Part shown: one piece after another, positions 29,910 to 50,974 of the stretch
Layout of the letters: the number at the start of each line of letters is the position of its first letter
How positions within the stretch are numbered: position 1 is the stretch's first letter
Source of the DNA: Phycisphaerae bacterium
GTDB taxonomy: Bacteria > Planctomycetota > Phycisphaerae > JAJVII01
DNA: 64,000 nt
Assembly: GCA_022072085.1 (NCBI GenBank)
Contig: JAJVII010000011.1
Coordinates: forward strand, 62,001-126,000
Direction of reading: 5' to 3'
Program-made: the position numbers and the translations under genes
Notes under the pieces: model-generated
Told to the model about the DNA's origin: nothing
The model's database searches: none
What the model saw: only the letters and a program-made list of their open reading frames with translations

Positions 29910-29938
29910 AAAAGCGGACCCGTCGGAGCGGGTCCGCT
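29910..29938 (-). terminator. Rho-independent terminator (distal) for the 30073 gene
   Basis: A perfect 10-bp stem (AGCGGACCCG at 29913-29922 and CGGGTCCGCT at 29929-29938, loop TCGGAG) is followed on the minus strand by TTTT. It backs up the terminator at 30012-30051. Confidence 0.8.
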
Positions 29939-30011
29939 CTGCGCTGAATGCCCGGGGATGGGCAGGAGGTAGCGTGTCGTCGGCGGGCGGAACTCAGGCC
30001 TGCCGGCGAGG

Positions 30012-30072: not shown

Positions 30073-31092
30073 TCAGTTGGTGTTCTGATCCGCTCCGCCG
30101 CCGGTGCGAGCGCCGCCGCGACCGCCGCGGTTGCCGCGATTGGGACGCGTACCCCGATCGCCGCCCGGACGCCGGGTGTTGAGCTGATCGTACTTGGTCT
30201 TCTGCTCGTCGGTGAGCAGAGCCTTGACGTCGGTCTGATACTTCTGGAACAGATCGCGACGGGCCTCGGGCGTGTCGGCCTTGGACATCGCGTCGCGCAG
30301 GGCGTTCTGAAGGTCCGTGACCTTCGCGACCTGCTCATCGGTCAGCGACAGCCCGGTCTTGAGCCGGTCGATCATGGCCTGGCCGCGTTCGTCCTGGGCC
30401 TTCTTCTGAAGCTCGGCCAGCTTGGTCTTCTGCTCGTCGGTGAGCAGGGCCTTGACGTCGGCTTCATGCTTCTGCATCAGGTCGCGCCGGGCCTCGGGGG
30501 TGGTGGCCTTGCCCATCGCTTCGCGCAGGGCCTTGTTCAACTCCTCGATCTTGGACTTCTGGTCGTCGGTCAGGTTGAGTTGGCCGAGCAATTCCTGGAA
30601 GCTGCCGCCGCGCATCCCGGGGCGCTGATTGCGGCCGGCGGTCGCCTTTTCCAGGTTGGCCTGGAACTGCTTGAACTGCTCCTCGGTGAGCAGCGGCTTG
30701 ACGGCCTCGCTCATCTTGCTGCCCAGTTCGCCGGGCTTGGGAGTCAGCTCTTCCATCTGCTTGCGGAGTTCCTCGACCTTGGCCTTGTCGCCGGCCTTCT
30801 CGGCGTCGGAGATCTGCTGGCGAAGCTCCTGACGCTTGGCGACGTTGGGATCGTTCTCGCGGACGTTCTTGAGGGCCTCGCGCACCTTGGCCATCTGGTC
30901 TTCGGTCAGGTTCATGCCTTCGAACAGGCCGACCATCGCGCGATCGCCGCCGGGCCGGGCCGCCGGACGCCGCGGGGCGTCGGTCTTGGGCGCGTCGGTC
31001 GCCGGCGCTTCATCGGCAGCCAGCGCGGCGAAGGGAACAGCCAGCAACAGGCCGGCGGTGGCCGTCAGTGCCCATTTGATCAACCGATTCAT
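30073..31092 (-). CDS. Secreted LTxEQ-repeat protein with RGG-rich tail (paralogue 1)
   Basis: The 339-residue protein has a signal peptide (MNRLIKWALTATAGLLLAVP) and an Ala/Pro/Asp linker. Helical units are marked by MNLTEDQMAKVREALKNVRE, KPLLTEEQFKQF, LNLTDDQKSKIEELNKALRE, KALLTDEQKTKLAELQKKA, LSLTDEQVAKVTDLQNALRD and KALLTDEQKTKYDQLN. Two of these units, with the PEARRDL link, are near-identical internal duplications. The pattern resembles Spy/CpxP LTxxQ proteins, which bind misfolded proteins or metal in the periplasm. The tail (RGTRPNRGNRGGRGGARTGG) is RGG-like. RBS AAGGAGATCGAG fixes the start. Two terminators follow. It is related to the proteins at 32560 and 33998. Confidence 0.8.
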   Translation of the reverse strand: MNRLIKWALTATAGLLLAVPFAALAADEAPATDAPKTDAPRRPAARPGGDRAMVGLFEGMNLTEDQMAKVREALKNVRENDPNVAKRQELRQQISDAEKAGDKAKVEELRKQMEELTPKPGELGSKMSEAVKPLLTEEQFKQFQANLEKATAGRNQRPGMRGGSFQELLGQLNLTDDQKSKIEELNKALREAMGKATTPEARRDLMQKHEADVKALLTDEQKTKLAELQKKAQDERGQAMIDRLKTGLSLTDEQVAKVTDLQNALRDAMSKADTPEARRDLFQKYQTDVKALLTDEQKTKYDQLNTRRPGGDRGTRPNRGNRGGRGGARTGGGADQNTN

Positions 31093-31308
31093 CTCGATCT
31101 CCTTTTCCGGGGCCGTGGCCCCAAAGTGTTTTCCCGTGCGGTGTTCCATTATCCTCAGTTCATAACGCAGGGGTTAGTACTAAAATTGCAGTCATAGAGA
31201 ATTTTTGCCAGGAACGGCGTTTCTGACCTGAAAAGCCGGTTTTCGGGCGATTTCGAGGCATGCTTCTCGCCACAATTCCGCCCTGCGCCGGCAGGCCGAC
31301 CGGCCCGT

Positions 31309-32346
31309 TCATCGGGCCGGGGCGAACGGCGTCCGAACGCCCGCGGCGGCGCGGAAGAGGTCGGCCAACCGGTCGGCCAGCACCGCGCGATCGTGGTGGG
31401 CCAGCACGTATTGCCGCCCGCGGCGCCCCATCGCGCGGGCCGCCTCGGCGTCGTCGGCCAGTCGGCCGATCGCGGCCAGCCACTGCGCCGGGTCGTCGGC
31501 GAGCAGGCCTCGCGGCTGGTCGCCCGGCCCGGCGTAGCGGAGATTCTCCCCGACCGGCGAGCCGACCCAGGGCAGACCGTGGGCCATGTATTGCAGCACC
31601 TTGAACGGGCACTTGCCGCGCGTCCAGGGCGTGTCGGGCATCGGGCAGAGGCCGACATCGCACTCGGCCAGCGCTGCCGCCTGCTCCTGCGGCGACCAGC
31701 GGCGCCAGTCCACGCGAAGCGGCGCGAACCGCGGGTCAGCCGGGGCGTGCGCGACCAGGCGGAGCGTCGCGTCCGGCCGACGGCGGCCCAGTTCGCTGAG
31801 CGCCGGCGCGAGTTCGTCCAGGTATCGCTGCGTCGGCTGCGAGCCCATCCAGAGCAGCGTGAACGGTCGGCCGGCCGGGCGATCGGCCGGCGCCCCCGGC
31901 GCATCGACGCCCATGGGGACGACGTGGACGACGGGGCAGTGGGGGCGTGCGGCGTCGGCGAGATAGTCGTTGGCGGCTAGTGCCGCGTCGCATCGCCGCA
32001 GCCAGTGGCGGAACTTGAACCGCCGCGTCCGGCTGGCCCCGCGGCTGCCCAGGTGGATCGGATCGTCGAAGTCGAAGAGTATGCGCCGGGCCGCCCGCCG
32101 CCACGAGCCGGACCGCCAGGGGGGAATCAGGTAGCGGTGCCACCAGAGCAGGTCGAAGTCGGCCAACTCGCGGCGCAGGGCGCGACGGCCGCGGCGGTCG
32201 GCGGGCATCGTGCGGGCGTCGACGCGGACGCCGCGGTCGGCCAGCAGCGAGAGGTAGCGCAGGACGCGATGCTCGAAGCTTGGGGAATCGGGCTTGCGCG
32301 TGAGGCAGAGAACCCGCAGCGGTGCGTCTGTATGGTCGGCGGACAT
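31309..32346 (-). CDS. Glycosyltransferase, GT4-like (GT-B fold)
   Basis: The 345-residue protein starts MSADHTDAPLRVLCLTRKPD and has a GT-B layout. The N-terminal half contains HRVLRYLSLLADRGVRVDAR and LLWWHRYLIPPW. The C-terminal half contains FTLLWMGSQPTQRYLDELAP, AALAECDVGLCPMPDTPWTR, and GKCPFKVLQYMAHGLPWVGS, which is the donor-binding region with a K..Q.MA.G.P pattern typical of GT4. The frame extends upstream to 32496, but the ATG at 32346 is the only one at a sensible N-terminus. It is inserted between two LTxEQ paralogues on the same strand. The sugar is unknown. Confidence 0.85.
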   Translation of the reverse strand: MSADHTDAPLRVLCLTRKPDSPSFEHRVLRYLSLLADRGVRVDARTMPADRRGRRALRRELADFDLLWWHRYLIPPWRSGSWRRAARRILFDFDDPIHLGSRGASRTRRFKFRHWLRRCDAALAANDYLADAARPHCPVVHVVPMGVDAPGAPADRPAGRPFTLLWMGSQPTQRYLDELAPALSELGRRRPDATLRLVAHAPADPRFAPLRVDWRRWSPQEQAAALAECDVGLCPMPDTPWTRGKCPFKVLQYMAHGLPWVGSPVGENLRYAGPGDQPRGLLADDPAQWLAAIGRLADDAEAARAMGRRGRQYVLAHHDRAVLADRLADLFRAAAGVRTPFAPAR

Positions 32347-32480
32347 CGGGGCCCCGTTGTCAGGTTGAATGCTCAAGAGGCCGGCTGCCGGAGAGGCGCC
32401 GCCCGTCTGTCCCCGATTTACCCGGCGGGCGGCGCGATGTCCAGAGCCGGTCCGGGGCGCGCGGGCGCGAAAGCGTGAGT

Positions 32481-32522
32481 GCAAAGAAGAAGGCACGGCT
32501 CCGGAGGGCCGGAACCGTGCCT
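32481..32522 (-). terminator. Rho-independent terminator of the 32560 gene
   Basis: On the minus strand an imperfect stem (AGGCACGG with TCCGG inside, pairing CCGGA and CCGTGCCT; 32491-32522) is followed by TTCTTCTTTG. It lies 38 bp after the stop of the LTxEQ protein gene. Confidence 0.7.
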
Positions 32523-32559
32523 GGATTGCGTCAGGACGACGGGCGGTCGTCGATCAGCT

Positions 32560-33846
32560 TCAGTTGCCGCCGCCGGCGTCATTGTTGCCGCCTCGGCCGC
32601 CGCGGTTGCCTCGATTGCCGCGACCGCCGCCGAAGCCCTGCTGGTTGTTGCCGCCGCCCGGACCGCCGCCGAAACCTCCACGCCCGCCGCCGAAGCGGCC
32701 GCCGCGGTTCGACTCGTAGGCCTTCTTCTGCTCATCGGTCAGGACCGAGGAGATGTCCTTGCGGAGCTTGTCCATCAGATCGCGCCGGGCCTGGAATTCC
32801 TCGGGCTTGAGCTGGGCCAGGGCGCCCTTGGCTCCGTCGGCCAGGTCGTCGATCTGCTTTTTCTGCTGATCGGTGATGCCCGCCAGGCCCTTGGCCGAGT
32901 CGACCGTGCCGCGGAGCATCCGGTCGTTCATCTGCGTGGTGAACTCCTGCTCACGCTGCTGCAACTTGGCCTGCTGCTCGGGGGTCAGCACCTTGTTGAC
33001 CGCGTCGCGGCCTTCGCGCATGGCCGCTCCGAAGTCCGGGGTCAGCTCGCGGAGCTTGGCCCGGGCGGCGTCGGCGGCGGCCTGGTCGTTCTTGCTCTCG
33101 GCGTCGCGAATCTGGCTGCGGAGCTGATCGACCTGCTCGCGGTTCTTCTGCATCTGCTCGAACGTCGAGGCCATGCGGTCGGTGATGATCTTGCGGATCT
33201 GCGCGTTCTGCTCATCGGTCAGGTCCAGCCCCTCGAAGCGACGCATCGCGAAGCCCGCGGCGCCCTGGGCCTGGCCGGCCGGGCTGTCGGCCTCGGCGTT
33301 GAGCTGCTTGAGCTGCTCGACCTTGTCAGCCGGCAGCTGCGAGCCCAGCGTCGCGGTCAGGTCGTTGAAGGCCTTCTCGCGCTGCTGGCGGAACTGGGTG
33401 TTCAGATCGTCCATCTGCTGGCGATACTTCTGATTGACGGCCGGGTCGAGTTCCTTGCCGTCCTGGCGGGCCTTGGCGGCCTCGTCGCGCCATTCCTGGG
33501 CGAGCTTGCCGGTCTTGTCGCGATAGTCGGTGGATTCCTTCTCGCGGGCGTCCTGATAGGCCTGGAGCGTCGGGGCGATGGCCTTGGCCTGGGCGTCGGA
33601 CAACTGCAACCGGCGGAGCATGCCGTCCAGGCGGCGGCTGCCCGAGCTGACCAGGTTGCCGTTGGCCTGATTGCCGTCGCCGGTGGCCGGCTTGTCGGTC
33701 GGCGTCGTGGGGGTGTCGGTGGTCTTGGGCTGCTGGTCCGGCGTGATCACTTTGACCTGCACGTCCTCGGCCATCAGCGTGCCGACACCGGCCAGAACCA
33801 TCGTCGCCGCGAGGGCCAGCGTCAGAACAAGCATCGAACGGTTCAT
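32560..33846 (-). CDS. Secreted LTxEQ-type protein with RGG-rich tail (paralogue 2)
   Basis: The 428-residue protein has a signal peptide (MNRSMLVLTLALAATMVLAG) and then AEDVQVKVITPDQQP, a segment nearly shared with paralogue 3. A Thr/Pro linker follows. Helical units contain RLQLSDAQAKAIAPTLQAYQ, LDLTDEQNAQIRKIITDRM, NKVLTPEQQAKLQQREQ, GITDQQKKQIDDL and SSVLTDEQKKAYESN. The region between is strongly charged coiled coil. The C-terminus is a long Gly/Arg/Asn run with FGGGRGGFGG units. RBS AGGAGAGACGCG precedes the ATG. A promoter is predicted at 33899-33927. Family resemblance is to Spy/CpxP-type proteins, but the length is unusual. Function unknown. Confidence 0.8.
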   Translation of the reverse strand: MNRSMLVLTLALAATMVLAGVGTLMAEDVQVKVITPDQQPKTTDTPTTPTDKPATGDGNQANGNLVSSGSRRLDGMLRRLQLSDAQAKAIAPTLQAYQDAREKESTDYRDKTGKLAQEWRDEAAKARQDGKELDPAVNQKYRQQMDDLNTQFRQQREKAFNDLTATLGSQLPADKVEQLKQLNAEADSPAGQAQGAAGFAMRRFEGLDLTDEQNAQIRKIITDRMASTFEQMQKNREQVDQLRSQIRDAESKNDQAAADAARAKLRELTPDFGAAMREGRDAVNKVLTPEQQAKLQQREQEFTTQMNDRMLRGTVDSAKGLAGITDQQKKQIDDLADGAKGALAQLKPEEFQARRDLMDKLRKDISSVLTDEQKKAYESNRGGRFGGGRGGFGGGPGGGNNQQGFGGGRGNRGNRGGRGGNNDAGGGN

Positions 33847-33898
33847 CGCGTCTCTCCTGTGTATTGGGACCTCGGACGTCCCGGGGTTTCGATACGAC

Positions 33899-33927
33899 AT
33901 TATCCCTTCAGGGATCAACTAACGCAA
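33899..33927 (-). promoter_or_regulatory. Predicted σ70-type promoter of paralogue 2
   Basis: On the minus strand TTGCGT (33927-33922), 17 bp, and GATAAT (33904-33899) form a good promoter that would give a leader of about 45 nt. The same GGATAATG -10 region lies upstream of paralogue 1 at 31148-31153, but there without a good -35. Confidence 0.6.
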
Positions 33928-33997
33928 TAGTCGTATTTAGGAAAAGACGCACCGCCGGCCGGCTTCTTGCAGGGATTCGGCCAGGTGGCCGGACCGA

Positions 33998-35224
33998 TCA
34001 CGGGCCTTTCGGGGCCGGGGCCGAATCGCCGCGGTCCGTCCCCTTCTCGGCAGGCTGGGTTCCGCGGCGGCCCCGGTAGTAGTACCCGGCGGCCTTGCCC
34101 AGTTCCTTCTGCTGCTCGGGCGTCAGGGTCTGCCACAGGTCCCTCTGGAGCTGGCCGGTCAGCTCGCTGCGGCCGGCATAATCCATGAGGTCCAGGTCGG
34201 CCATCGCCTGCCGCGCGGCGTCGGACAGCTCATTGAGCTTGCGGCTCTGTTCCTCGGTCAGCTTGAGCTTCCCGTAGGGCGTGACGGCATAATTCACGTA
34301 CTGATCGGCTGCCTTGGCTGACTCCTGGTGTCGAAGCTCCTTCAAGGTCGCCTGCTGCTCGGGCGGCAACATGTCGACGATTTCCTTGGCGCTCTCGCGG
34401 TAGATCGTCGCCCAGTCCATCGGCTGGCTGAGCTTGCGGATCTCCGCGTAGAGCTGGTCCATCTTCTCCTTGTCCTTCTTCTCGTAGACCGCCCGGAGCT
34501 GGTCATAGAGCGGCTGGGTCTTCTCGTTGATCTCCGCCTGCTTCCGCAGTTCGGTTTCGTAGCGGGGCGTCAGCGCCTTGATCATCCGCTGCCGCAGGGC
34601 GTCGTCCAGTTGCAGCCCACGCGTCTGCATCATGAGGGTCGAGCGGGCCATCGTCATCGCCCGGCCGGCCAGCGAACCGCTCGTTTCCTCGATCATCATC
34701 CGCAGTTCTTCGGCCTGGACGGCCGAGAGCATCCCCGAGTCGATCATGGCCGTCAGCAGCGCCTTGCGGGTTTCCGCGCTCGAGGCGTAATGCCGGGCGC
34801 CGAGTTCACGCCACTGCTTCATCAGCTCCTGGCGCGTCTGCTCGTCGCCTTTCTTCCTGGCCTCTTCCATCCGGGTGAACAGGTCCTTGCCCTGCGCCTG
34901 GAACTCCGCCTGGGCCTTGGCTGCGTCCGCGGCGAACTTCTCCAGCAGCGGCGCGAATTTCGCCTTCTGCTCCTCGGTCAGGTTCAGCCGGGGCATCGCA
35001 AAGTCGAGGCCATAGTCCCCGGTCTTGAAAGCCTTGTCGCCTGTCGCCGGCTTGGGACCCTCCGGCGTCGTCGGCGCCGGCGGCGTCTGCGGCGGGGCGT
35101 CGGGATTGACCTGCGGGTCGGGCTGGCCCACGATCTTCACCTGCACGTCCTCAGCCAGCAGCCTCGGTCCAGCCAGGCACAGTGCGATTGCGACGACAGC
35201 GGCGATGCGTCCGAAGGTGTTCAT
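33998..35224 (-). CDS. Secreted LTxEQ-type protein (paralogue 3)
   Basis: The 408-residue protein starts with a signal peptide (MNTFGRIAAVVAIALCLAGP) and the shared segment AEDVQVKIVGQPDPQ. LTxEQ-type units are LNLTEEQKAKFAPLLEKFAA, DMLPPEQQATLKELRHQES, LKLTEEQSRKLNELSDAA and QTLTPEQQKELGKAAGYYYR. Between them lie charged helices, with KALLTAMIDSGMLSAVQAEE partly matching the motif. Unlike its two relatives it lacks an RGG tail, ending in Gln/Pro/Asp-rich sequence. It is first in a run of minus-strand genes (33998, 32560, 31309, 30073). Function unknown; a periplasmic protein-binding or stress role is inferred from the CpxP/Spy resemblance only. Confidence 0.78.
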   Translation of the reverse strand: MNTFGRIAAVVAIALCLAGPRLLAEDVQVKIVGQPDPQVNPDAPPQTPPAPTTPEGPKPATGDKAFKTGDYGLDFAMPRLNLTEEQKAKFAPLLEKFAADAAKAQAEFQAQGKDLFTRMEEARKKGDEQTRQELMKQWRELGARHYASSAETRKALLTAMIDSGMLSAVQAEELRMMIEETSGSLAGRAMTMARSTLMMQTRGLQLDDALRQRMIKALTPRYETELRKQAEINEKTQPLYDQLRAVYEKKDKEKMDQLYAEIRKLSQPMDWATIYRESAKEIVDMLPPEQQATLKELRHQESAKAADQYVNYAVTPYGKLKLTEEQSRKLNELSDAARQAMADLDLMDYAGRSELTGQLQRDLWQTLTPEQQKELGKAAGYYYRGRRGTQPAEKGTDRGDSAPAPKGP

Positions 35225-40220: not shown

Positions 40221-41222
40221 CAATTCCTCCTCCGGCGGTTCGGCGATCGGGTAGACGCCGTATCGCTGGACGGTTTCGCGCATCGCGGCGATGTGGGCCT
40301 CGGGGAAGGGCATGCCCTGGTCCGGGCCGCAGAAGTATCCGCCGTCGCGGCCGAGCTGCCACAGCCGCCGCCGCGTCTCGGCGATGATCGCCTCCACCGG
40401 CCCGGTCATGATCGCGTGCGTGCTCACCCCGCCCTGGAGCGCCATCCGCCCGGCCGTCCGGGCGCGGATCGCGTCCAGGTCGTTGGCCGACGCCTGCACG
40501 GGGTTCAGGCAGTCCACGCCCATGTCCATGAAGAAGTCCACGATCGGCTCGACGTTGCCGCAGGAGTGGAAGTTGATCAGCACGCCGCGCCGCTTGTAGA
40601 GCGACACCAGCCGCCGATACTGCGGCACGAAGTACTCCTCGAGCAGGCGGCGGCTGAACAGCGGCGCCCGCTGGCTGCCCAGGTCGTCGCCCAGGCCGAT
40701 GAAATCGACACCGACGCTCAGGTAGTGCTTCGCGACCCCGAGTTGGAAATCCATCACGCGCGTGAGCAGCTCGTGTACCGCCGCCGGCGCGTCCACCATC
40801 GCCATCATCAGCCGATCCATTCCGACCAGGTTGTAGCACCGCTCCCAGAGCGTCTCGCGGTGGCTGCCGATCAGGAACGTCGCGTCGCGGTCGGGGCAGG
40901 CGGCCGCCCGCTCGCGGATCGGCCCGACCAGCCGCTCGTCGTCCGGGTCGGGCCACGCGAACCGCTCCAGCACGCCGGGCGTCGTGAAGTCGGCCAGCGG
41001 ATGCTCGATCGCGAAGCCCATCACGCCGTCGAGTTCCTTTCGCCAGCCGACGCCCCAGATGTCGTGCCAGACCGTGCCGATCGGCGAGTCGTGCCCGCCG
41101 ACGCCGGCCAGCGGCTCGTGGTTGACCCCGAAGTAGGAGCAGTTGTGCGTCGGCGGGCCGCCGACGATCCGCTCCGGCCGCTCGAAACGCAGGATTCGCA
41201 GGGCGTTCTCTTTGGCGTTCAG
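40206..41222 (-). CDS. URO-D superfamily protein with probable CTG start
   Basis: The 338-residue protein fits the URO-D/MtaA barrel: (L)NAKENALRILRFERPERIVG, FLIGSHRETLWERCYNLVG, VDFIGLGDDLGSQRAPLF, and the metal-binding pair in LINFHSCGNVEPIVDFFMDM. It ends PDQGMPFPEAHIAAM. The HSCGN motif is that of methylcobamide-type methyltransferases. The frame has no ATG, GTG or TTG near the conserved start, only a CTG at 41222 with GGAGG eight bases before it. That puts the protein at the family's usual N-terminus. The ATG at 41288 has no ribosome binding site. The last five residues (LNVVH) derive from a repeat. Confidence 0.8.
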   Translation of the reverse strand: MNAKENALRILRFERPERIVGGPPTHNCSYFGVNHEPLAGVGGHDSPIGTVWHDIWGVGWRKELDGVMGFAIEHPLADFTTPGVLERFAWPDPDDERLVGPIRERAAACPDRDATFLIGSHRETLWERCYNLVGMDRLMMAMVDAPAAVHELLTRVMDFQLGVAKHYLSVGVDFIGLGDDLGSQRAPLFSRRLLEEYFVPQYRRLVSLYKRRGVLINFHSCGNVEPIVDFFMDMGVDCLNPVQASANDLDAIRARTAGRMALQGGVSTHAIMTGPVEAIIAETRRRLWQLGRDGGYFCGPDQGMPFPEAHIAAMRETVQRYGVYPIAEPPEEELNVVH

Positions 41223-41396
41223 GACCCATGCCTCCGGCGGGAAACCCCCGCCGCATACCCTATCGGCCCGCGGCCCGGCCCGCAACATGGCGCCGGGAGG
41301 CTGGCGCGATAGAATACCCCATGCAGAATCCATGAACTTCGGACGCCCGGCTGCGTTCCAAACCTGCGGGGGTCTTCCAGGTAAGGAGGTTGAAAA

Positions 41397-42512
41397 ATGA
41401 GACGCATGCTTGTCCTGGTCGCGCTGTTTCCCCTCGGCCTGGTCTGGCCGGCACTGGCTGACGACAAGGCGCCCGCTCCGCCCAATCCCGAGGCCCCCAG
41501 ACTTTTCGGCCACCTCGGCGTCGCCCCCGGGCCGGTCTCCGAGGAACTGGGCAGCCAGCTCGGCCTGGAGGACGGCCGCGGCGTGCGGGTCGTGCGGGTC
41601 CAGCCCGACAGTCCGGCCGCCAAGGCCGGCCTGCGCGTCCACGACGTGCTGACGATGCTCGACGACCAGATCCTCTTCAACGACGACCAGCTCCGCAAGC
41701 TGGTCAGCTCGAAGGACCCCGGCACGAAGGTGACGCTTACGCTCATCCGCCGCGGCAGGGAACTGTCGGTCGGGGCGACGCTGGACGGCTCGCCCGAGCG
41801 GGCGTGGGGCCGCGAGATGCCCGAGGGAATGTTCATGCCCCCGCCGGGCATGCTGCCGCTGATGCCGGACCTGCGCCCCGAAAGACCGGGTATGCAGCCG
41901 GGCGAGGAGGGCGCAGGCGGAAACGGGTGGGACAGCGATCGGCTGCGGCGGCAGCTCGATGAGATGCGCCGGCGCGAGCGGGAGGCGCTGGAGCGGCTGA
42001 ACCGGCCCGGCCAGGACAAGGAGTTCCAGTTGCGCGTCCCCGAGGCGCCCGAGGGCGCGCCCCCCGACGCCGAACAACTGCGCAAGGAGATCGAAGAGCA
42101 GATGCGGCGGTTCTTCGAGCAGCGGCGACGGGAGATGGATCGCTTCGCGCCGCCGACCACGCAGCCGGACGAGGAGAACAACGCCGAGCAGCCGGGCCCG
42201 GCCCTCATGCGCGGACAGGGCGGCCAGGCGATTGTGATAGGCCCGGCCGGCGGCATGGTGCAGGCCCAGGGACAGGGCAACGGTTTCATGGCCTCCGCGA
42301 TGGCGGCGTCGGCCAACTATCGCTGCTCGATGGTCGCGCGGGCGAGCGAGCCGCCGGCGGTGTCGCTGTATGACCGCGAGGGCAAGGCGATCTTCGAGAA
42401 CCGGACGCCGGACCAGGCGCGTCAGCTCGCGCGGAGCCTGGACCCCGAGGCCCGCCAACTCGTCGAGAACATGACGCAGAACGCGCAGGCCGTCGATCCC
42501 GCGCAGCGCTAG
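41397..42512 (+). CDS. Secreted PDZ-domain protein
   Basis: The 371-residue protein has a signal peptide (MRRMLVLVALFPLGLVWPA). A PDZ domain lies at about 40-135 (FGHLGVAPGPVSEELGSQLG, VVRVQPDSPAAKAGLRVHDV, LRKLVSSKDPGTKVTLTLIR). A charged helical region about 180-250 (LDEMRRREREALERLNRPGQ) and a PPTTQPDEEN linker follow. A C-terminal domain near 300-365 contains ANYRCSMVARASEPPAVSLY. There is no protease domain, so it is probably a scaffold or adaptor in the envelope. RBS AAGGAGGTTGAAAA is excellent. It is divergent from the URO-D-like gene. Confidence 0.85.
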   Translation: MRRMLVLVALFPLGLVWPALADDKAPAPPNPEAPRLFGHLGVAPGPVSEELGSQLGLEDGRGVRVVRVQPDSPAAKAGLRVHDVLTMLDDQILFNDDQLRKLVSSKDPGTKVTLTLIRRGRELSVGATLDGSPERAWGREMPEGMFMPPPGMLPLMPDLRPERPGMQPGEEGAGGNGWDSDRLRRQLDEMRRREREALERLNRPGQDKEFQLRVPEAPEGAPPDAEQLRKEIEEQMRRFFEQRRREMDRFAPPTTQPDEENNAEQPGPALMRGQGGQAIVIGPAGGMVQAQGQGNGFMASAMAASANYRCSMVARASEPPAVSLYDREGKAIFENRTPDQARQLARSLDPEARQLVENMTQNAQAVDPAQR

Positions 42513-42597
42513 CAGCAATCCCAATTCAGCCCCCCGTGAAAACACGGGGAGCGCGCCGCCGTGGTTGCGGCCCGTGCGTATCCACCCGGGGCTGACT

Positions 42598-43779
42598 TTA
42601 CGCGCGCGACGCGGGCGTGTAATCCGCCGCCGACTGGAAGGTTCGTGTGGCCGCCGATTCGCGGGCCAGCAGGCAGGTCAGCGCGCTGCGCAGCCCGGCT
42701 GCCAGCGGCGACTTGCTCTCCTCCTGGCCCCGGACCATCCGCAGGAAGTTGATCGCGAGTTGGGCGTCGCCGCCGCCGTGGCCGCCCTCGCCACGCACGT
42801 CCAGCACCTCGTGAACGGGCTGGTGGTGCATCCAGAGGTTCGCGGTCGTCGTCGCCAGGTCGTATTCGATCGTGCCGAGGTGGCCGATGCAGCGCCACTT
42901 GCGGCAGGCCGACCCGCGGCGGCTGTAGAAGTTCTGCGTGTAGACCCCCTGCGTGCCGCCCGCGTATTCGATGATCGCGTTGCCGCTGTCCTCGTTGCCG
43001 GTGTCCACGGCGAACGCGCAGCGGTAGTCCTCCTTCGCGGTCTGAAGCGGCGCGCCGGTCGCGGCGGCGGGGTTGTGCTTGCTCTCCAGGCAGGAGAATT
43101 TCTCGTCGCAGTCGACGCACTTGAGCCCGGCTGGATGGTCGCCGCGGAAGACCCGCTTGCTGGTCATGGCCGCGACCTGCACCGGGTCGGCTTCGCCCAG
43201 CAGGTAGCTGATGACGTCCAGGTCGTGGGTCGCCTTCTGGAGAAACATGCCGCCGGTCTCGGCCTGGTCGCGATACCACGTCTGATAGTAGACCTCGCCG
43301 TAGGGCACGTTGTTGGTGGCCTGCACGTGGGTGATCTCGCCCAGCCGCCCGCTGCGGACGATCTCCCACATCCGCCGCACGCCGGGAACCAGCCGCAGGG
43401 GGAAACTGACCATCGTGGGCGACTTGGATTTCGCCGCTGCCGCCGCGAGCAGGCGATAGTCGTCGAACGTGGTGGCGACGGGCTTTTCCAGGTAGAGCGG
43501 CAGGTTGCGGGCCAGGACGGCCGCCCCCAGCCGGGCGTGCAGCGAGCATCGCGTCGCGACGATGACGGCGTCCAGTTCCTCGGCGTCGAGCATGGCCTGG
43601 GCGTCGGCGTAGAGGCGGACCGAGGCGGGATCCTTCTCGCGCTTCGCCAGCGTGCGCTTCACGGCCTCGGCGTTCGGGTCGGCGATGGCGACGAGCCGGG
43701 CCCCGCAGGGCTGCTGCTCCATGACGCTGACGACGCCCGACCCGCGTCCGCCGTATCCGATGGCGCCCAGTTTGATCAT
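42598..43779 (-). CDS. Gfo/Idh/MocA family oxidoreductase
   Basis: The 393-residue protein has a Rossmann domain (MIKLGAIGYGGRGSG at the start, VIVATRCSLHARLGAAVLAR, LPLYLEKPVATTFDD with the EKP motif). A C-terminal beta-sheet domain contains WYRDQAETGGMFLQKATHDL, where the HDL triad Asp/His lies, and KWRCIGHLGTIEYDL. It probably oxidises or reduces a sugar or inositol using NAD(P). An internal four-Cys-like set (CVDCDEKFSCLESKHNP) is unusual and could bind a metal. The frame is open upstream to 44118; the ATG at 43779 has AGGAG at 7 bp. It is divergent from the acyltransferase. Confidence 0.92.
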   Translation of the reverse strand: MIKLGAIGYGGRGSGVVSVMEQQPCGARLVAIADPNAEAVKRTLAKREKDPASVRLYADAQAMLDAEELDAVIVATRCSLHARLGAAVLARNLPLYLEKPVATTFDDYRLLAAAAAKSKSPTMVSFPLRLVPGVRRMWEIVRSGRLGEITHVQATNNVPYGEVYYQTWYRDQAETGGMFLQKATHDLDVISYLLGEADPVQVAAMTSKRVFRGDHPAGLKCVDCDEKFSCLESKHNPAAATGAPLQTAKEDYRCAFAVDTGNEDSGNAIIEYAGGTQGVYTQNFYSRRGSACRKWRCIGHLGTIEYDLATTTANLWMHHQPVHEVLDVRGEGGHGGGDAQLAINFLRMVRGQEESKSPLAAGLRSALTCLLARESAATRTFQSAADYTPASRA

Positions 43780-43844
43780 CATGCGGCTCCTTGGTTGTGA
43801 GCGCGGCATGATACCGCGCCGGGCGTCCCCCGTCCAAGCCGCGG

Positions 43845-43873
43845 TTGACGCGGGGCGCGCGTCTCCGTATAGT
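43845..43873 (+). promoter_or_regulatory. σ70-type promoter of the acyltransferase-cpaB pair
   Basis: TTGACG (43845-43850), 17 bp and TATAGT (43868-43873) match the ahcY promoter nearly exactly. A leader of about 50 nt would precede the GTG at 43931. Confidence 0.8.
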
Positions 43874-43930
43874 CGCGGCCGGTTCAGTGGCCCGCCGTCC
43901 GGGCGGGCCGGCGCCTGTGAAAGTGCATCG

Positions 43931-44890
43931 GTGGGAATCGAACGAGAGAGCGGCTGGTTCCGGCGTTTCCGCAAGGCTGTCGCCTTTGCGGGCATGCAGT
44001 TCGGCATGAGGATCGCCAAGAGCGGCAGCGGACCCGGGGCCGTCGAGTCCCTGCGGGGCGCCTTGCGCATCGCCATCCGGCTGGCCTGGCCGCTGCGGCG
44101 CCGGCTTGCCGACAACATGCGTCACGCCGGGCTGCTTCAGCCGGGTCTGGTCGACGCCCACTTCGAGCGGGCGATCGACCACCTCATCATGCTGGCGCAC
44201 ATCTTCCGCGTCGGGCCGATCGACAGCCGCGAGCGGTTCGTCGTCGAGGACTCGATCAGCCTGCTCCGACAGGCCTACGACGGCGGCCGCGGGGTCATCA
44301 CCATCACGCCCCACCTGATCGGGTTCCCGGTCTACGGGCCGGTCATCACGCCGCACGTGCCCTGCACGCTGTACGTGCGGCTGAACAAGGACCCGCGCAA
44401 GATGGCGATCAACCACGCCATCGCCCGCGACGCCGGCTGCGAACTGGCCGTCACCCGCCGACACGCCAGTGAAATGGAGAAGCTCCAGGTCGCGATCAAC
44501 GTCCTGCGCCAGGGGCAGCAACTGTTCATCACCCCCGACACGCCGCGCAAGCCGCACCAGGGCATCCCGGTGAACATCCTCGGCCACACCGCCTACTTCC
44601 CGACCGGGCCGTTCGTGATGGCTCTGCGGACCGGGGCGCCGGTCGTGCCGGTGTGGTGGCGGTGGGACCCCGCCGACGGCAAGTATCACATGTGGTTCGA
44701 TCAGCCGATCGAACTGGCCCGCGGCCGCGGCGCGCCCGGCCTGCGCGAGCAGACCGAGTCGGCCACCCGCAAGTGGGCCGCCGACATCGACGCCTACCTC
44801 CGGGCCCATCCGACGATGTGGTGGAACTGGCTGGACAAGCGCTGGACGCGTATACTGCACAGCAGCCCGGTCGCGGGCGATGCGACATGA
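43931..44890 (+). CDS. LpxL/HtrB-like acyltransferase
   Basis: The 319-residue protein resembles the late-acyltransferase family of lipid A synthesis. The core is GRGVITITPHLIGFPVYGPV (the HxxxxD/E-like region, here with H and no clear acidic partner five residues on), LYVRLNKDPRKMAINHAIAR, LFITPDTPRKPHQGIPVNIL (second conserved block) and TGAPVVPVWWRWDPADGKYH. The HxxxxE/D signature is changed (TPHLIGFPV), so activity is uncertain. A basic N-terminus replaces the usual membrane helix. The GTG start gives this length; the frame runs open to 43652. It ends in a 4-bp overlap with the CpaB-like gene. Confidence 0.75.
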   Translation: MGIERESGWFRRFRKAVAFAGMQFGMRIAKSGSGPGAVESLRGALRIAIRLAWPLRRRLADNMRHAGLLQPGLVDAHFERAIDHLIMLAHIFRVGPIDSRERFVVEDSISLLRQAYDGGRGVITITPHLIGFPVYGPVITPHVPCTLYVRLNKDPRKMAINHAIARDAGCELAVTRRHASEMEKLQVAINVLRQGQQLFITPDTPRKPHQGIPVNILGHTAYFPTGPFVMALRTGAPVVPVWWRWDPADGKYHMWFDQPIELARGRGAPGLREQTESATRKWAADIDAYLRAHPTMWWNWLDKRWTRILHSSPVAGDAT

Positions 44891-45963
44891 ACGCCAAGAC
44901 CACCGCCATCCTGATGCGCGTGCTCATCGTCGTCCTGCTGGGACTGATGGCCGTGCTGATGTTCAAACCCGACCTGCTGGACTTCGAGCGTCTGGTGTCC
45001 CACATCCGCCAACCCGCGCAGCCGGCCGAGACGGTCGTCGTCGTGCTGGCCGCCGCACGCGACCTGGACGCCGGCACGCTGCTGGATGAAAGCATGGTTC
45101 AGGTAGTGCGCGTGCCGCAGTCGCAGATGCCGCGGACCGGCCGCGAGGGCCTGGTCGGCGCCGCGGAGATCGCCTCGGTCAGCTACCGCTACCTCCAGCA
45201 GCCGGTGAAGAAGGGCGACCTGCTCTACTGGCGCTACCTGACGCGTCCGCCCGAGCCGCCGGCGACCACACAGCCCGAGGCGGCGACCCAGCCGAACGAG
45301 GCCTCCCGGTCTGACGAACACGCCACCGTCACTGTCCTGGTCGCCCGCGGGAACCTGGGCGCGGGGGCGGTCCTGACCGCCGAGAACACTTCGAAGGTCC
45401 TGACCCTTGTCGCGCTGATGCCTGACGAATACGCGTCGGAACTCTTCGTGGGCGACGCCTGCGACGCGGCCCTCGGCAGGGCGCTGCGGGCGCCCGTGGA
45501 CGCCGGGCAGCTCATCCGCCGCCGGCGCCTGCTGTCCGACGGGGAGCCCGGGACCAAGCCGCCCCCGCCGCCTCCGAGCTATCGGCTGGTCGCGCTGAAG
45601 GTGAATCGCGCCGCCTGCCCGGCCGACGTCCGGGTCGGCATGATGGTGGACGTGGTGACCCGTCAGCCGGCAGCCGACGGCGGCGATCGGATGCTCGTCG
45701 TCGTCAGCGACGCGCCGGTGGCGGCCGTCAACGGCGATGCGGTGCCGGGCGTTCGCGAGGGCGAGAGCACGTCGGTCTCGATCAAGATGGGGGAGAAGGA
45801 CGCCTTCCTGCTGGAGGCGTTCAAGGCGACCGGTTACGAGACGATCCTTCGGACCGGTCCACAGCCGGCGACCCGCCCCGACGGCGAATCCTTCGGCCGA
45901 TTCAACCCGGCTGCGGTTCAACTCCTGCAATCCGATGGCGTGTCTCCACGCGTTGTCCCCTGA
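44887..45963 (+). CDS. CpaB/RcpC-like SAF-domain protein
   Basis: The 358-residue protein has one N-terminal membrane helix (TAILMRVLIVVLLGLMAVLM). The first SAF-like domain is VVVVLAAARDLDAGTLLDES onward (about 50-110). An ATTQPEAATQPNEA linker follows, and the second SAF-like domain is VTVLVARGNLGAGAVLTAEN onward. RLVALKVNRAACPADVRVGM and VDVVTRQPAADGG form the RcpC/CpaB-like third domain. In other bacteria CpaB is part of the Flp pilus assembly, but no other pilus gene is present here. The stop at 45961-45963 is followed by a 114-bp spacer without features. Confidence 0.82.
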   Translation: MNAKTTAILMRVLIVVLLGLMAVLMFKPDLLDFERLVSHIRQPAQPAETVVVVLAAARDLDAGTLLDESMVQVVRVPQSQMPRTGREGLVGAAEIASVSYRYLQQPVKKGDLLYWRYLTRPPEPPATTQPEAATQPNEASRSDEHATVTVLVARGNLGAGAVLTAENTSKVLTLVALMPDEYASELFVGDACDAALGRALRAPVDAGQLIRRRRLLSDGEPGTKPPPPPPSYRLVALKVNRAACPADVRVGMMVDVVTRQPAADGGDRMLVVVSDAPVAAVNGDAVPGVREGESTSVSIKMGEKDAFLLEAFKATGYETILRTGPQPATRPDGESFGRFNPAAVQLLQSDGVSPRVVP

Positions 45964-46077
45964 GCCGGTGTCTGCCGCCCGCCTCCGATGCTGTGGAGCA
46001 GATCAGGAAACTCCCTTGCGAGACGGCACGTTCCACGCTCCCTGACGGTCGCGCGGCGCGGGGCTGTTCTAAGGGGG

Positions 46078-48189
46078 TTACTCTTCGCCGACGTGGAAGA
46101 GGTCGCGCTGGAAGAGGTCCACCGCGGACTGGAACAGGGCCATGCCGGTGCGGCGGCTCTGCTCGATGCGGCCGGCGTCGGCGGCGTCGGCGGGATCCCA
46201 GCGGATCTGCTCGCGGCCGCGCAGGTGGAACGCGTCGATGGCCGGGCCCGGGTCGCCCGGCGTGGTGCAGAGCAGCCGGTCCTTCTGCACGAAGCCGATG
46301 ACGCCGTTCTGCTGCACGATCGCGAACCCCTCGCCCTGCGGCGTCCGCAGGATGTCGCGCCCGAAGAAGCAGTGCTCGAACGGCCGGCCCAGCCGCGAGA
46401 GGACCGTCACCGCCAGGTCCGCCTGGCTGCACACGGTGGCGATCCGCCTGGGCGGGCCGATCAGCCGCTCGGGCCCGACGATCGAGCCGTAGATATGGAA
46501 GTTGGCGGCGTCCACCGGCCCGCGGCGCTGGGCCCGGCAGTGGTCGGCGGTCAGCACGAAGATCGTGTTGTTGAAGTAGTCCTCTTTCTCGGCGCGGCGG
46601 AAGAAGTCGCCCACGGCCCAGTCGGCGTAGCGGACGGCCCGCTCCTCGTCGCTCATCTCCGCGGGCAGGTCGGGATGGCTGCGCCGCACGGTCCAGTCGA
46701 AGACCTCCGGCGGCACCTCGAACGGCGGATGGTTGGTCAGCGTGAGGATGACCGCGAAGAAGGGCCTGTCGGACTTGCCGGCCTCGCGGAGCATCCGGTT
46801 GGCCCGGATGAACAGCGACTGGTCGTCCACGCACCACAGCAGCGAGAAGCGGGCCACCCCCGGCTCGGCGAGCTGGAAATCCTTCAGGCTGTGGATCTCC
46901 TCGGCGAAGCTCTCCTTGTCCACGATCGTCTCAAAGCCGTGCGTCTGAAGGTAGCCCTTGATGTTGTTGAACCAGAGGTTGCCGCCGTGAATGAACTCGG
47001 TGGCGTATCCGCGGTCGCGCAGCAGCCCGGCGAGCGTCAGGAACGCCCCGCGGCTGTGGCGGTTCTCGGCGATCGGCCGACCCGGCATGTCCGGCAGGCC
47101 GCTGATGCTGCCGACCAGCCCGCGGCTGGTCCGCGTGCCGACGCTGTAGAAACGATCGAGCATGATGCCGCGCCGCCCGACGGCCTCCAGCTCCGGCGTC
47201 CAGTCGTGGCCGCCGCCCAGGGAGGCGACGAAGTCGCTGGACATCGACTCCATCACGATCAGCACCACGTTGGGCGGTCGCTGCCCGGCTGCCAGCGGCG
47301 TGCCCGGCTGGCTGACGCGGAGCATCGGGTTGGGCGCACCCGGCGGGGCCCATTGGTCGCCCGGCTGGTCGTAGAGCTGGCGGGCGACAGCGTAGGCTTC
47401 GCCCTGGTCGGGCAGGAAGCGGTATCGCTCCGGCGTGATGGTCTGCTCGGTGATCTCGGCCATCACCTGCGAGCCGAGGTTGAACACCGGGTTGAGGGAC
47501 GCGCGGTTGATGACCCACTGCTTGGAGAACTGCGAGGGGCTGGTGTCGCTGTCGGTCGGGTTGGGCGGGCCCTGGACGCCTAGCACCGCCAGCAGGCTCA
47601 GGCAGCCGGCGACCATCGGGCGGCCGACCATCCGCCCGCGCGGCGCGACGCTCGGCCAACCCACACGGCCGAACAGGCCGTAGCAGATGATCCCCACCAG
47701 CACCAGCAGGGCGGCCGACCAGCCGATGGGCCAGCCCTTCCAGATCATGTCCATGACCTCAGGCCGCCAGACGGGGTAGCAGAAGGCCTGGTAGTTCAGC
47801 CGATCCCAGTAGTGATCGAAGAAGTACAGGTCGCTGATGCAGCCGAAGAGCATCAGCGTGAAGGCGACCGCGGCCGCCGCGCTCACGCCCAGCCGGAACC
47901 GCGCGTGCGTGAACCACCGCCGCGGGAAGAGCGTCCAGGCGACGACCGTCGGGATCAGCGCGTAGCAGAGCACCGCGTTGTCGTAGAACCAGCCGACGCG
48001 GAAGCAGCGCAGCACGTCGCGCGGCACGACCTCGCCGATGGAGTGCGAGTAGTAGTTGCACAGGAGAAAGACGACCCGGTCCAGCGAGAAGATGACGATG
48101 CCCGCGGCGTAGAAGACCAGCACCGGGCGCAGCCAGCGCAAGATGCTGATCGTCGAATTCACCGATCTGAGGCCGCGGCGCACTTTCAT
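46078..48189 (-). CDS. LtaS-like sulfatase-fold membrane enzyme
   Basis: The 703-residue protein has about five N-terminal membrane helices (such as VLFYAAGIVIFSLDRVVFLL and NAVLCYALIPTVVAWTLF, to about residue 190). A phosphoglycerol transferase/sulfatase-type domain follows. The metal-binding Glu lies in NVVLIVMESMSSDFVASLGG, the catalytic Thr in YSVGTRTSRGLVGSIS, and the DH pair in FVLTADHCRAQRRG. It could transfer phosphoglycerol or phosphoethanolamine to a surface polymer. The ATG at 48189 is preferred over a GTG at 48240. It is the only gene in its stretch and ends 114 bp from the CpaB-like gene. Confidence 0.88.
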   Translation of the reverse strand: MKVRRGLRSVNSTISILRWLRPVLVFYAAGIVIFSLDRVVFLLCNYYSHSIGEVVPRDVLRCFRVGWFYDNAVLCYALIPTVVAWTLFPRRWFTHARFRLGVSAAAAVAFTLMLFGCISDLYFFDHYWDRLNYQAFCYPVWRPEVMDMIWKGWPIGWSAALLVLVGIICYGLFGRVGWPSVAPRGRMVGRPMVAGCLSLLAVLGVQGPPNPTDSDTSPSQFSKQWVINRASLNPVFNLGSQVMAEITEQTITPERYRFLPDQGEAYAVARQLYDQPGDQWAPPGAPNPMLRVSQPGTPLAAGQRPPNVVLIVMESMSSDFVASLGGGHDWTPELEAVGRRGIMLDRFYSVGTRTSRGLVGSISGLPDMPGRPIAENRHSRGAFLTLAGLLRDRGYATEFIHGGNLWFNNIKGYLQTHGFETIVDKESFAEEIHSLKDFQLAEPGVARFSLLWCVDDQSLFIRANRMLREAGKSDRPFFAVILTLTNHPPFEVPPEVFDWTVRRSHPDLPAEMSDEERAVRYADWAVGDFFRRAEKEDYFNNTIFVLTADHCRAQRRGPVDAANFHIYGSIVGPERLIGPPRRIATVCSQADLAVTVLSRLGRPFEHCFFGRDILRTPQGEGFAIVQQNGVIGFVQKDRLLCTTPGDPGPAIDAFHLRGREQIRWDPADAADAGRIEQSRRTGMALFQSAVDLFQRDLFHVGEE

Positions 48190-48418
48190 CCCGAACGGTT
48201 CCCGATCTGCGAGCCCCTGAACTGTCAAATGCCCCCGCACGCCGAGTTGCCTGTCATTAAGGCTTCCCGAGACTAATATATCGGTAACCTGGTCCTAATT
48301 CCAGCACAATGGAACGTTTGCGGGGAGGCTTGCCTGTCGCCTCGCCCCGCCTAAGATTGGCATTACGGGCCGACCGCCGCACGCGGGCGGCCTATCGCAA
48401 GCGAAGCAGGAGACCCGA

Positions 48419-49510
48419 ATGCCCGCACGCCCGCGCGCCTCGCGCAACGCCGCCAGCGCCGACCCCGTCGCCCGACTCCGCGCCGCCCAGCGCATGCCGC
48501 GTCGGCCGGCCATCCTGACCTCGACGGTCGGCAGCTACCCGCTGCCGGACTGGCTGGTGGCCGCCCCGAGTTCCCAGGCCGTCATCGACGCGACGCGCGT
48601 CGTCTTCGACACCCAGCGGCAGGCGGGCATCGACCTGCCCACCGACGGGGAACTCTATCGCTTCAGCCCCAGCCATCCCGAGACCAACGGGATGATCGAA
48701 TACTTCGTCGCCCCGATGGCCGGCACGCGCACCGCGCTTGGCCGCAGCGAGGTCGAGGCCTTCCGCGCCCGGTCGTCGATGGGCTTCCGCGTTCGGCCGG
48801 CCGCCGTGGTCGACGGGCCGCTGGGCGAGGGGTCGCTGGACCTGGCCGGCGATTGCGCCCGGGCAGCCGCCGTCGCCGGCGGGCCCTTCAAGTTCACGCT
48901 CACCTCGCCGTACATGCTCGCCCGCACGCTGCTGGACCGGCACTACGGGGATTTCGCGTCGCTGCTGCTGGCCGTCGCCGACGTGCTGGCCGACCAGGTC
49001 CGCGGGCTGCCGGCCGCCTGCATCCAGGTCGATGAAGCCAACATCCCCGGCAACCCGTCCGACGCCCCGCTGGCCGGTGAGGCGATCAACCGCGTCCTGG
49101 ACGCCGTCGATCGCGGCACGGAGCGGGCGGTCCACTTCTGCTTCGGCAACTACGGCGGGCAGGTGATCCAGAAGGGCACGTGGGCCGCACTGGTCGATTT
49201 CCTCAACGGCCTGCACTGCGACCATCTCGTGCTGGAACTGGCCCATCGCCCGGCTGCCGACCTGGCCGCCCTCAAGCGGATCGACCGGCGCATCGCGCTG
49301 GGCATCGGCGTGGTGGACATCAAGGTGAACCACGTCGAGACGCCCGAGGAGATCGCCCGCCGCATCGACGCCGCCGCCCGGGTCGTCGGCGCCGAGCGCA
49401 TCCGTTTCGTTCATCCCGACTGCGGCTTCTGGATGCTCAAGCGTTCGGTCGCCGACCGCAAGATCGCCGCGCTGGCGCCCGGCCGCGACCTGTTCCTCGG
49501 TTCCCGCTGA
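48419..49510 (+). CDS. MetE C-terminal-like (cobalamin-independent methionine synthase fold) protein
   Basis: The 363-residue protein has the barrel of the MetE C-terminal domain: STVGSYPLPDWL, GIDLPTDGELYRFSP, GPFKFTLTSPYMLARTL, CIQVDEANIPG, and the zinc ligands His and Cys in VHFCFGNYGG, Glu in LVLELAHRP, and Cys in FVHPDCGFWML. No N-terminal domain of full MetE is present, so it is a short, stand-alone methyltransferase probably using a different methyl donor. An ATG at 48419 has AGGAGA at 5 bp. The 110-bp repeat at 49516-49625 begins 6 bp after its stop. Confidence 0.85.
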   Translation: MPARPRASRNAASADPVARLRAAQRMPRRPAILTSTVGSYPLPDWLVAAPSSQAVIDATRVVFDTQRQAGIDLPTDGELYRFSPSHPETNGMIEYFVAPMAGTRTALGRSEVEAFRARSSMGFRVRPAAVVDGPLGEGSLDLAGDCARAAAVAGGPFKFTLTSPYMLARTLLDRHYGDFASLLLAVADVLADQVRGLPAACIQVDEANIPGNPSDAPLAGEAINRVLDAVDRGTERAVHFCFGNYGGQVIQKGTWAALVDFLNGLHCDHLVLELAHRPAADLAALKRIDRRIALGIGVVDIKVNHVETPEEIARRIDAAARVVGAERIRFVHPDCGFWMLKRSVADRKIAALAPGRDLFLGSR

Positions 49511-49515
49511 GTGCT

Positions 49516-49625
49516 AACCACAGAGACACAGAGGCACAGAGAGATCGGGGAAGGAAGGGATATCGTTCCGATTCTTCATGCCTTTGGTTTCGTCTTCTCG
49601 GTGTCTCCGTGCCTCTGTGGTGAAT
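49516..49625. repeat. 110-bp CACAGAG-class hairpin element, copy A
   Basis: It begins AACCACAGAGACACAGAGGC and ends CGTGCCTCTGTGGTGAAT. The two ends are inverted copies of each other over about 28 bp with a few mismatches. It aligns without gaps to copy B at 62331-62440 at 91 of 110 positions (my count), with nearly all differences being transitions. It lies 6 bp after the MetE-like gene. Confidence 0.92.
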
Positions 49626-49725
49626 ATTTCTGAATCGCGACCCGCAGGGGAGGGCGGCCTGGCGATTGGTCAGACGACTTTCGCCGGCGGCGCGGTAGAA
49701 TACGCGACTCCCAGAGGGACGTACC

Positions 49726-50895: not shown

Positions 50896-50974
50896 CCTGC
50901 CGAGACCGGGGGGAGTCGGCGCGGCGCGAGCGATCCGCGACCTCGCTGCCAGGCGGCATCGTGCGGGAATCGGC

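Follow-up and report, generated by a model that had tools for sequence, protein, structure and literature searches.

Multi-module LTXXQ (Spy/CpxP-type) proteins with predicted export signals and Gly/Arg-rich tails in a Phycisphaerae bacterium

Three genes for proteins of the LTXXQ (Spy/CpxP) family, termed here P1, P2 and P3, lie on the minus strand of a 64,000-nucleotide stretch of a Phycisphaerae bacterium genome (GCA_022072085.1, contig JAJVII010000011.1, positions 62,001-126,000 of the forward strand; hereafter the window). Read along that strand, the gene order is P3, P2, a glycosyltransferase gene and P1 (Table 1). The open reading frames (ORFs) that a first-pass annotation had placed at 30073, 32560 and 33998 are found at these positions, and the glycosyltransferase gene it had noted among them, of group 1 type, is located between P2 and P1. 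This gene is probably incidental to the LTXXQ genes, with no sign of belonging to their system. Export of P1, P2 and P3 is predicted from signal peptides read by eye. For P1, the start at 31092 appears likelier than that at 31149, because the second in-frame ATG would yield a classical signal peptide.

Table 1. Coordinates of the genes, modules and other features. Plain coordinates are positions in the window; those with an L prefix are loci in other planctomycete genomes.
Feature	Coordinates	Strand	Basis
P1, LTXXQ protein with predicted export signal	30073..31092	-	339 residues; PF07813, NCBIfam, PDB match, model
P1 full-size helical LTXXQ module, residues 50-152	30637..30945	-	CnrX 4wwf, Z 8.4, 3.7 Å, 103 residues
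P1 first half-size module, residues 162-236	30385..30609	-	Spy 3o39 and CpxP 3itf fold matches
P1 second half-size module, residues 237-306, duplicate of the first	30175..30384	-	E 7e-26, two-sequence comparison
P1 RGG/GGN tail, residues 307-339, net charge +6	30076..30174	-	pLDDT <50 at 307-336
Terminator-like hairpin 3' of P1, 12 pairs	29911..29940	-	
Group 1 glycosyltransferase gene	31309..32349	-	PF13692, 40.7 bits
P2, LTXXQ protein with predicted export signal and RGG tail	32560..33846	-	428 residues; PF07813, model
P2 family motif AEDVQVKVITPD at predicted mature N-terminus	33736..33771	-	Alignment, pattern searches
P2 module 1, residues 71-185	33292..33636	-	CnrX 4wwf, Z 9.1, 3.6 Å, 106/106 residues
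P2 module 2, residues 189-319	32890..33282	-	Pfam LTXXQ; Spy and CpxP fold matches
P2 half-size module 3, residues 326-384	32695..32871	-	Three helices; aligns to P1 half-size modules
P2 RGG/GGN tail, residues 382-428, net charge +5	32563..32703	-	pLDDT <50
Terminator-like hairpin 3' of P2, 14 pairs	32491..32522	-	
P3, LTXXQ protein with predicted export signal	33998..35224	-	408 residues; PF07813, BLASTP to P2
P3 family motif AEDVQVKI	35132..35155	-	Pattern search
LTXXQ/Secretin_N fusion, other planctomycetes	L196:1433-5185	-	LTXXQ over Pfam cut-off (this locus only)
LTXXQ/Secretin_N fusion, other planctomycete	L202:3880-7752	+	
LTXXQ/Secretin_N fusion, other planctomycete	L190:1147-4983	-	

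Membership of P1, P2 and P3 in the LTXXQ family is near-certain. Their PF07813 scores (63.9, 51.0 and 32.5 bits, respectively) all exceed the curated Pfam threshold of 24.3 bits, the strongest stretch in P2 being residues 199-298. The LTDEQ/LTEEQ-type units said to be shared are indeed common to all three: the LTxxQ motif occurs six times in P1 and three times each in P2 and P3, counts that are reached by none, four and seven of 5000 shuffles, respectively. With BLASTP, P1 is related to P2 (E 6e-19), and P2 to P3 over nearly the full length (E 5e-26). The best NCBIfam model for P1 is Spy PRK10455 (NF007769, 69.4 bits) and the closest for P2 is also Spy (39.0 bits), both below the equivalog cut-off of 174, and P3 is not listed for the Spy (NF007769) or CpxP (NF007687) equivalogs. 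Among solved structures P1 matches Spy and CpxP by sequence (Spy 3o39, E 9.7e-6), and its full module matches E. coli Spy in a direct BLASTP comparison (E 6e-8).

In P1 a signal peptide and a linker precede one full LTXXQ module, which is followed by two half-size modules in tandem and an RGG tail. The internal duplication that had been proposed is apparent in the half-size modules, where residues 172-231 and 248-307 have 63% identity over 60 positions, PEARRDL included. The half-size module also resembles DUF4890 (PF16231; 24.8 bits, E 3.5e-5), although below the cut-off of 29.7. In the AlphaFold2 model of P1 (mdfd4183163b5) helices span residues 50-306, and both ends have a predicted local distance difference test score (pLDDT) <50. 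The first half-size module of this model aligns to Spy 3o39 with Z 10.2 (1.7 Å over 66 residues) and to CpxP 3itf with Z 9.3 (1.7 Å over 71 residues). In the P2 model (m204c40f11efc) the helices at 71-384 are mostly at pLDDT 80-96, and residues 1-65 and 382-428 fall below 50; its module 2 aligns to Spy 6bie (Z 7.7 over 96/97 residues) and CpxP 3itf (Z 7.5 over 109/111). P3 has the same architecture as P2, and its short end carries a few RG pairs without RGG.

Only the three window proteins entered the alignments behind both models. The predicted template modelling (pTM) scores of the two are modest (0.52 and 0.40), and therefore no claim is made on the arrangement of the modules. For the P2 model, Foldseek found nothing in the PDB below E 0.001; the fold matches come from VIA-align, in which the P1 and P2 models align to Spy, CpxP and CnrX, all of the helical hairpin fold, with Z from 7.5 to 10.2. 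The assignment of the modules to this fold is a prediction from sequence and model taken together. Rather than being unrelated in fold, the models of P1 and P2 share Spy/CpxP/CnrX-type helical modules, and P3 joins them by sequence. The first-pass description of an expanded CpxP/Spy-type family is borne out by Pfam, by sequence and fold matches in the PDB and by the paralogs at other loci of the genome.

P2 and P3 are members of a lineage-specific paralog family, and P1 is a separate branch without the mature-start motif. In a nine-member alignment the signal peptide is followed by a mature start close to [ED]DVxVKVIxPD, then by a linker rich in Pro and Thr, and finally by two to three modules. 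As had been noted, AEDVQVK directly follows the signal peptide in both P2 and P3. Variants of the motif are found in five proteins here (P2, P3 and the paralogs C26, C46 and C52) and in at least seven of the sister genome, the only other genome of the same GTDB family in the comparison. A strict pattern for the motif has three matches in the own genome, all after the signal peptide of P2/P3-type paralogs; a looser pattern has seven, of which three follow the signal peptide in paralogs and four lie inside other frames or proteins. P1 has a counterpart in the sister genome (C466, 41% identity). The tree places P2 with the sister protein C277 (89/93), only C26 and C52 are firmly joined, and P3 has no firm placement. 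A single recent tandem duplication giving rise to P2 and P3 was considered and is unsupported, as P2 groups with C277. The own genome also encodes a further LTXXQ protein of 259 residues with a degenerate repeated G/R/D-rich tail (L099, G000:C30, 8827-9606, minus strand).

A profile search of the GTDB family matched both of its two genomes, with seven and ten matching rows. In a sample of 392 genomes from the phylum, where at most four candidates per genome were scored, the long-architecture profile matches 22 at E <=1e-6, and outside the own genome no match spans more than 183 of the 387 positions. LTXXQ itself is present in 110/392 genomes at E 0.001, 94 of them over the cut-off. Thus, the LTXXQ module is widespread, whereas the long architecture appears confined to this lineage. 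When contigs were scanned with P2, a single short match, to Bacteroides, was obtained.

Two of the three proteins, P1 and P2, end in RGG/GGN-rich runs, as had been claimed, and the Gly+Arg fractions of their last 40 residues (0.475 and 0.65) are the top two among 43 window ORFs. The tails had been described as new and odd for secreted proteins. The runs are real; however, they are not unique, as they recur across the phylum, and RGG/GGR runs likewise close the chains of C466 and C277, the sister counterparts of P1 and P2, respectively. DNA that could code for RGGRGG has 45 matches in the own genome, all of which were read, against 28 for a reversed-pattern control. By third-position G+C, few of the 45 are in likely coding frames, and three of these are C-terminal: P1, P2 and an RRM protein (RRM_1, 86.4 bits). 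The tail codons of P1 and P2 are mixed, with no single repeated unit.

In a set of 67 planctomycete LTXXQ proteins, at least three RGG anywhere in the chain are found in 13 and at least two in 18. This set is a part of the phylum LTXXQ places, drawn chiefly from those listed first, with the matched frame re-read; own-genome rows, L177 and one locus that recurred (L219) are excluded. At phylum LTXXQ loci, at least three RGG occur in 10/32 LTXXQ ORFs and 11/231 neighbour ORFs (Fisher p 2.5e-5), the 32 coming from 32 of 40 loci with a crude greedy ORF caller (L183, L185, L189 and L208 look mis-called) and the 231 including spurious antisense ORFs. Among secretion-like ORFs at least three RGG are seen in 8/20 LTXXQ proteins and 2/60 neighbours. 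The last 35 residues of LTXXQ proteins are also richer in Gly+Arg than those of neighbours (p 4e-4). Enrichment over neighbours, presence in the sister counterparts and recurrence in other planctomycetes thus show that the Gly/Arg tail accompanies the LTXXQ module repeatedly, and not at random, in the phylum. Within the 67 proteins the C-terminal stretch (15-150 residues) is more basic than the module in 48 (median +0.039 vs -0.020 charge per residue, p 1.5e-4). However, the net charge of the last 35 residues does not differ from that of neighbour ORFs (p 0.91; secretion-like subset p 0.12), and the idea that a basic tail substitutes for the positive charge of the Spy cradle is not supported, the C-termini being no more basic than those of neighbours.

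At least three genomes of other planctomycetes encode apparently exported proteins of about 1,250-1,290 residues in which LTXXQ units are fused to four or five Secretin_N domains, with RGG-rich runs at both ends (Table 1); L178 is probably another such fusion. A secreted-looking ORF adjoins the fusions, and that of L196 carries EF-hands (Pfam). An open frame of giant size, 3,666 residues or more, lies in the own genome (L235:3-11000, minus strand; G000:C1, about 40500-51500). It has numerous Secretin_N repeats (11 stretches within the 1005-residue piece tested), one RGGRGG loop and a C-terminal region that is secretin-like by eye.

P1, P2 and P3 are probably not a single operon, because a 14-pair terminator-like hairpin sits after P2. 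Eight terminator-like sites were found in all, against a shuffle mean of 4.3, and the six besides the hairpins of P1 and P2 have only 5-6 pairs. P3 and P2, which are 151 bases apart, may be one transcription unit and P1 another. At the C52 paralog locus (L098:8450-11416) an extracytoplasmic function (ECF) sigma factor, a FecR-domain protein, the LTXXQ paralog and a small secreted protein form one run, and sister C466 (L105) is divergent to an ECF sigma factor, a zf-HC2 protein and a second LTXXQ gene, near the end of an AcrB-type pump. These contexts, which resemble envelope-stress regulons, suggest control by sigma factors of that kind. Across the phylum, a general association of ECF sigma factors with LTXXQ genes is not supported, with no clear enrichment, and the L098 and L105 cases stand. 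No convincing shared promoter element was seen by eye in some of the sequences upstream of paralogs, for which no motif search was run. Downstream of C26 and C52 lie secreted-looking proteins of about 100 residues (L096:10045-10353, L096:10444-10743 and L098:8450-8776, the last on the minus strand) that have VPTPPGV[IL]GxY followed by PCA in common and no Pfam match. PEP-CTERM sorting signals occur in the window (50975-52228, minus strand, 23.2 bits) and in the sister genome (L105:6293-7138, 24.4 bits; cut-off 20.7).

The likeness of the window proteins to Spy lies in the LTXXQ family, predicted export, the sequence match of P1 and the placement of a P1 half-module on the Spy fold. However, Spy has one four-helix module per chain and acts as a dimer (PMC8144458), whereas P1, P2 and P3 have two to three modules per chain and a long linker, P1 and P2 add an RGG tail, and their scores are below the Spy equivalog cut-off. 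CpxP is similar in family and fold, with P2 module 2 aligning to 3itf, but P1 (24.6 bits) and P2 (18.6 bits) are far from the NF007687 equivalog cut-off of 160, and the window proteins are multi-module. No CpxA/CpxR-like genes were seen by eye beside them.

P1, P2 and P3 are best read, with a probability of about 0.6, as ATP-independent envelope holdases in which each chain carries several modules, followed in P1 and P2 by a disordered Gly/Arg tail. The literature describes Spy as dimeric, each monomer having four helices and the cradle carrying mainly positive charge (PMC8144458), and as capturing unfolded clients (PMC8144458, PMC7870927). Two or three helical LTXXQ modules strung on one exported chain would supply, within that chain, several amphipathic client-binding surfaces like those of the Spy dimer. 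The disordered tail of P1 and P2 would be a flexible, weakly sticky arm, which may engage clients, other tails or anionic polymers of the envelope in a multivalent way. We infer both the chaperone (holdase) activity and the induction by envelope stress. Several observations weigh against this assignment. The modules of P1, P2 and P3 are net neutral, unlike the positive Spy cradle (the E. coli Spy module, computed for comparison, is +3 over 94 residues). Z scores of 7-10 are partly generic for helical bundles, and unrelated helical rows score close. A search for sigma-factor genes in the window found none, and such genes are present at 8/40 LTXXQ loci (328 kb) compared with two in 135 kb of an own-genome control.

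The helical modules could instead be all that matters, the tails being functionless, neutral low-complexity growth of GC-rich DNA. This is possible but doubtful. The G+C content of the window is mostly 65-71%, the tail is missing in most family paralogs (P3, C26, C46 and C52), and C-terminal net charge is no different from that of neighbours; however, mixed codons are not one repeated unit, the tails recur in the sister counterparts of P1 and P2 and elsewhere in the phylum, and RGG enrichment persists among secretion-like proteins. If the tails do have a role, they may bind nucleic acid or drive condensates, so that P1 and P2 would gather envelope or extracellular RNA or DNA, or self-associate. 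The enrichment of RGG runs in LTXXQ proteins over neighbours is consistent with this, as is the company of an RRM RNA-binding protein as the only other C-terminal RGGRGG in a frame favoured by third-position G+C. On the other hand, the tails are short (33 residues in P1 and 47 in P2) and poor in aromatics (none in P1, few Phe in P2), both proteins carry export signals, no nucleic-acid-binding domain is above cut-off in the Pfam scan of P1 and P2, and the excess of the RGG pattern over its reversed control is modest, all of which makes this role unlikely. It is distinctly unlikely that, among RGG-bearing planctomycete LTXXQ proteins more widely, the tails assemble multivalently outside the cytoplasm, concentrate holdase modules and cooperate with Secretin_N-repeat proteins; the partners of such tails may be polyanions, RNA/DNA or each other. 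The LTXXQ/Secretin_N fusions of other planctomycetes and the RGGRGG loop in the giant Secretin_N-repeat protein of the own genome would fit such cooperation.

It is very improbable that P1, P2 and P3 sense or scavenge metals in the periplasm in the manner of CnrX/ZraP. The helical hairpin is shared with CnrX/NccX (Metal_resist, PF13801), the first modules of P1 and P2 align best to CnrX, over about 105 residues, and a P2-like protein of the sister genome matches Metal_resist above cut-off (39.4 bits vs 29.2). However, Metal_resist is not listed for P1, P2 or P3 at E 0.1 in Pfam, and by eye there is no membrane anchor beyond the signal peptide. The ligands of the known sensors are His, Glu and Met in CnrX and Cys and His in ZraP. 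The mature window proteins contain no Cys and one, zero and two His, respectively, and metal sensing is disfavoured because these sensor ligands are mostly missing.

No literature on LTXXQ proteins in planctomycetes, or on RGG in secreted or periplasmic chaperones, was recognised in the one paper library searched. To our knowledge, Spy-type holdases have been studied almost solely as single-module dimers of gammaproteobacteria. If P1, P2 and P3 are multi-module envelope holdases, their strung modules and the repeated Gly/Arg tails would be a natural experiment on the number of chaperone binding surfaces and on disordered arms. RGG-type runs, usually discussed inside cells, here recur on bacterial proteins with predicted export signals.

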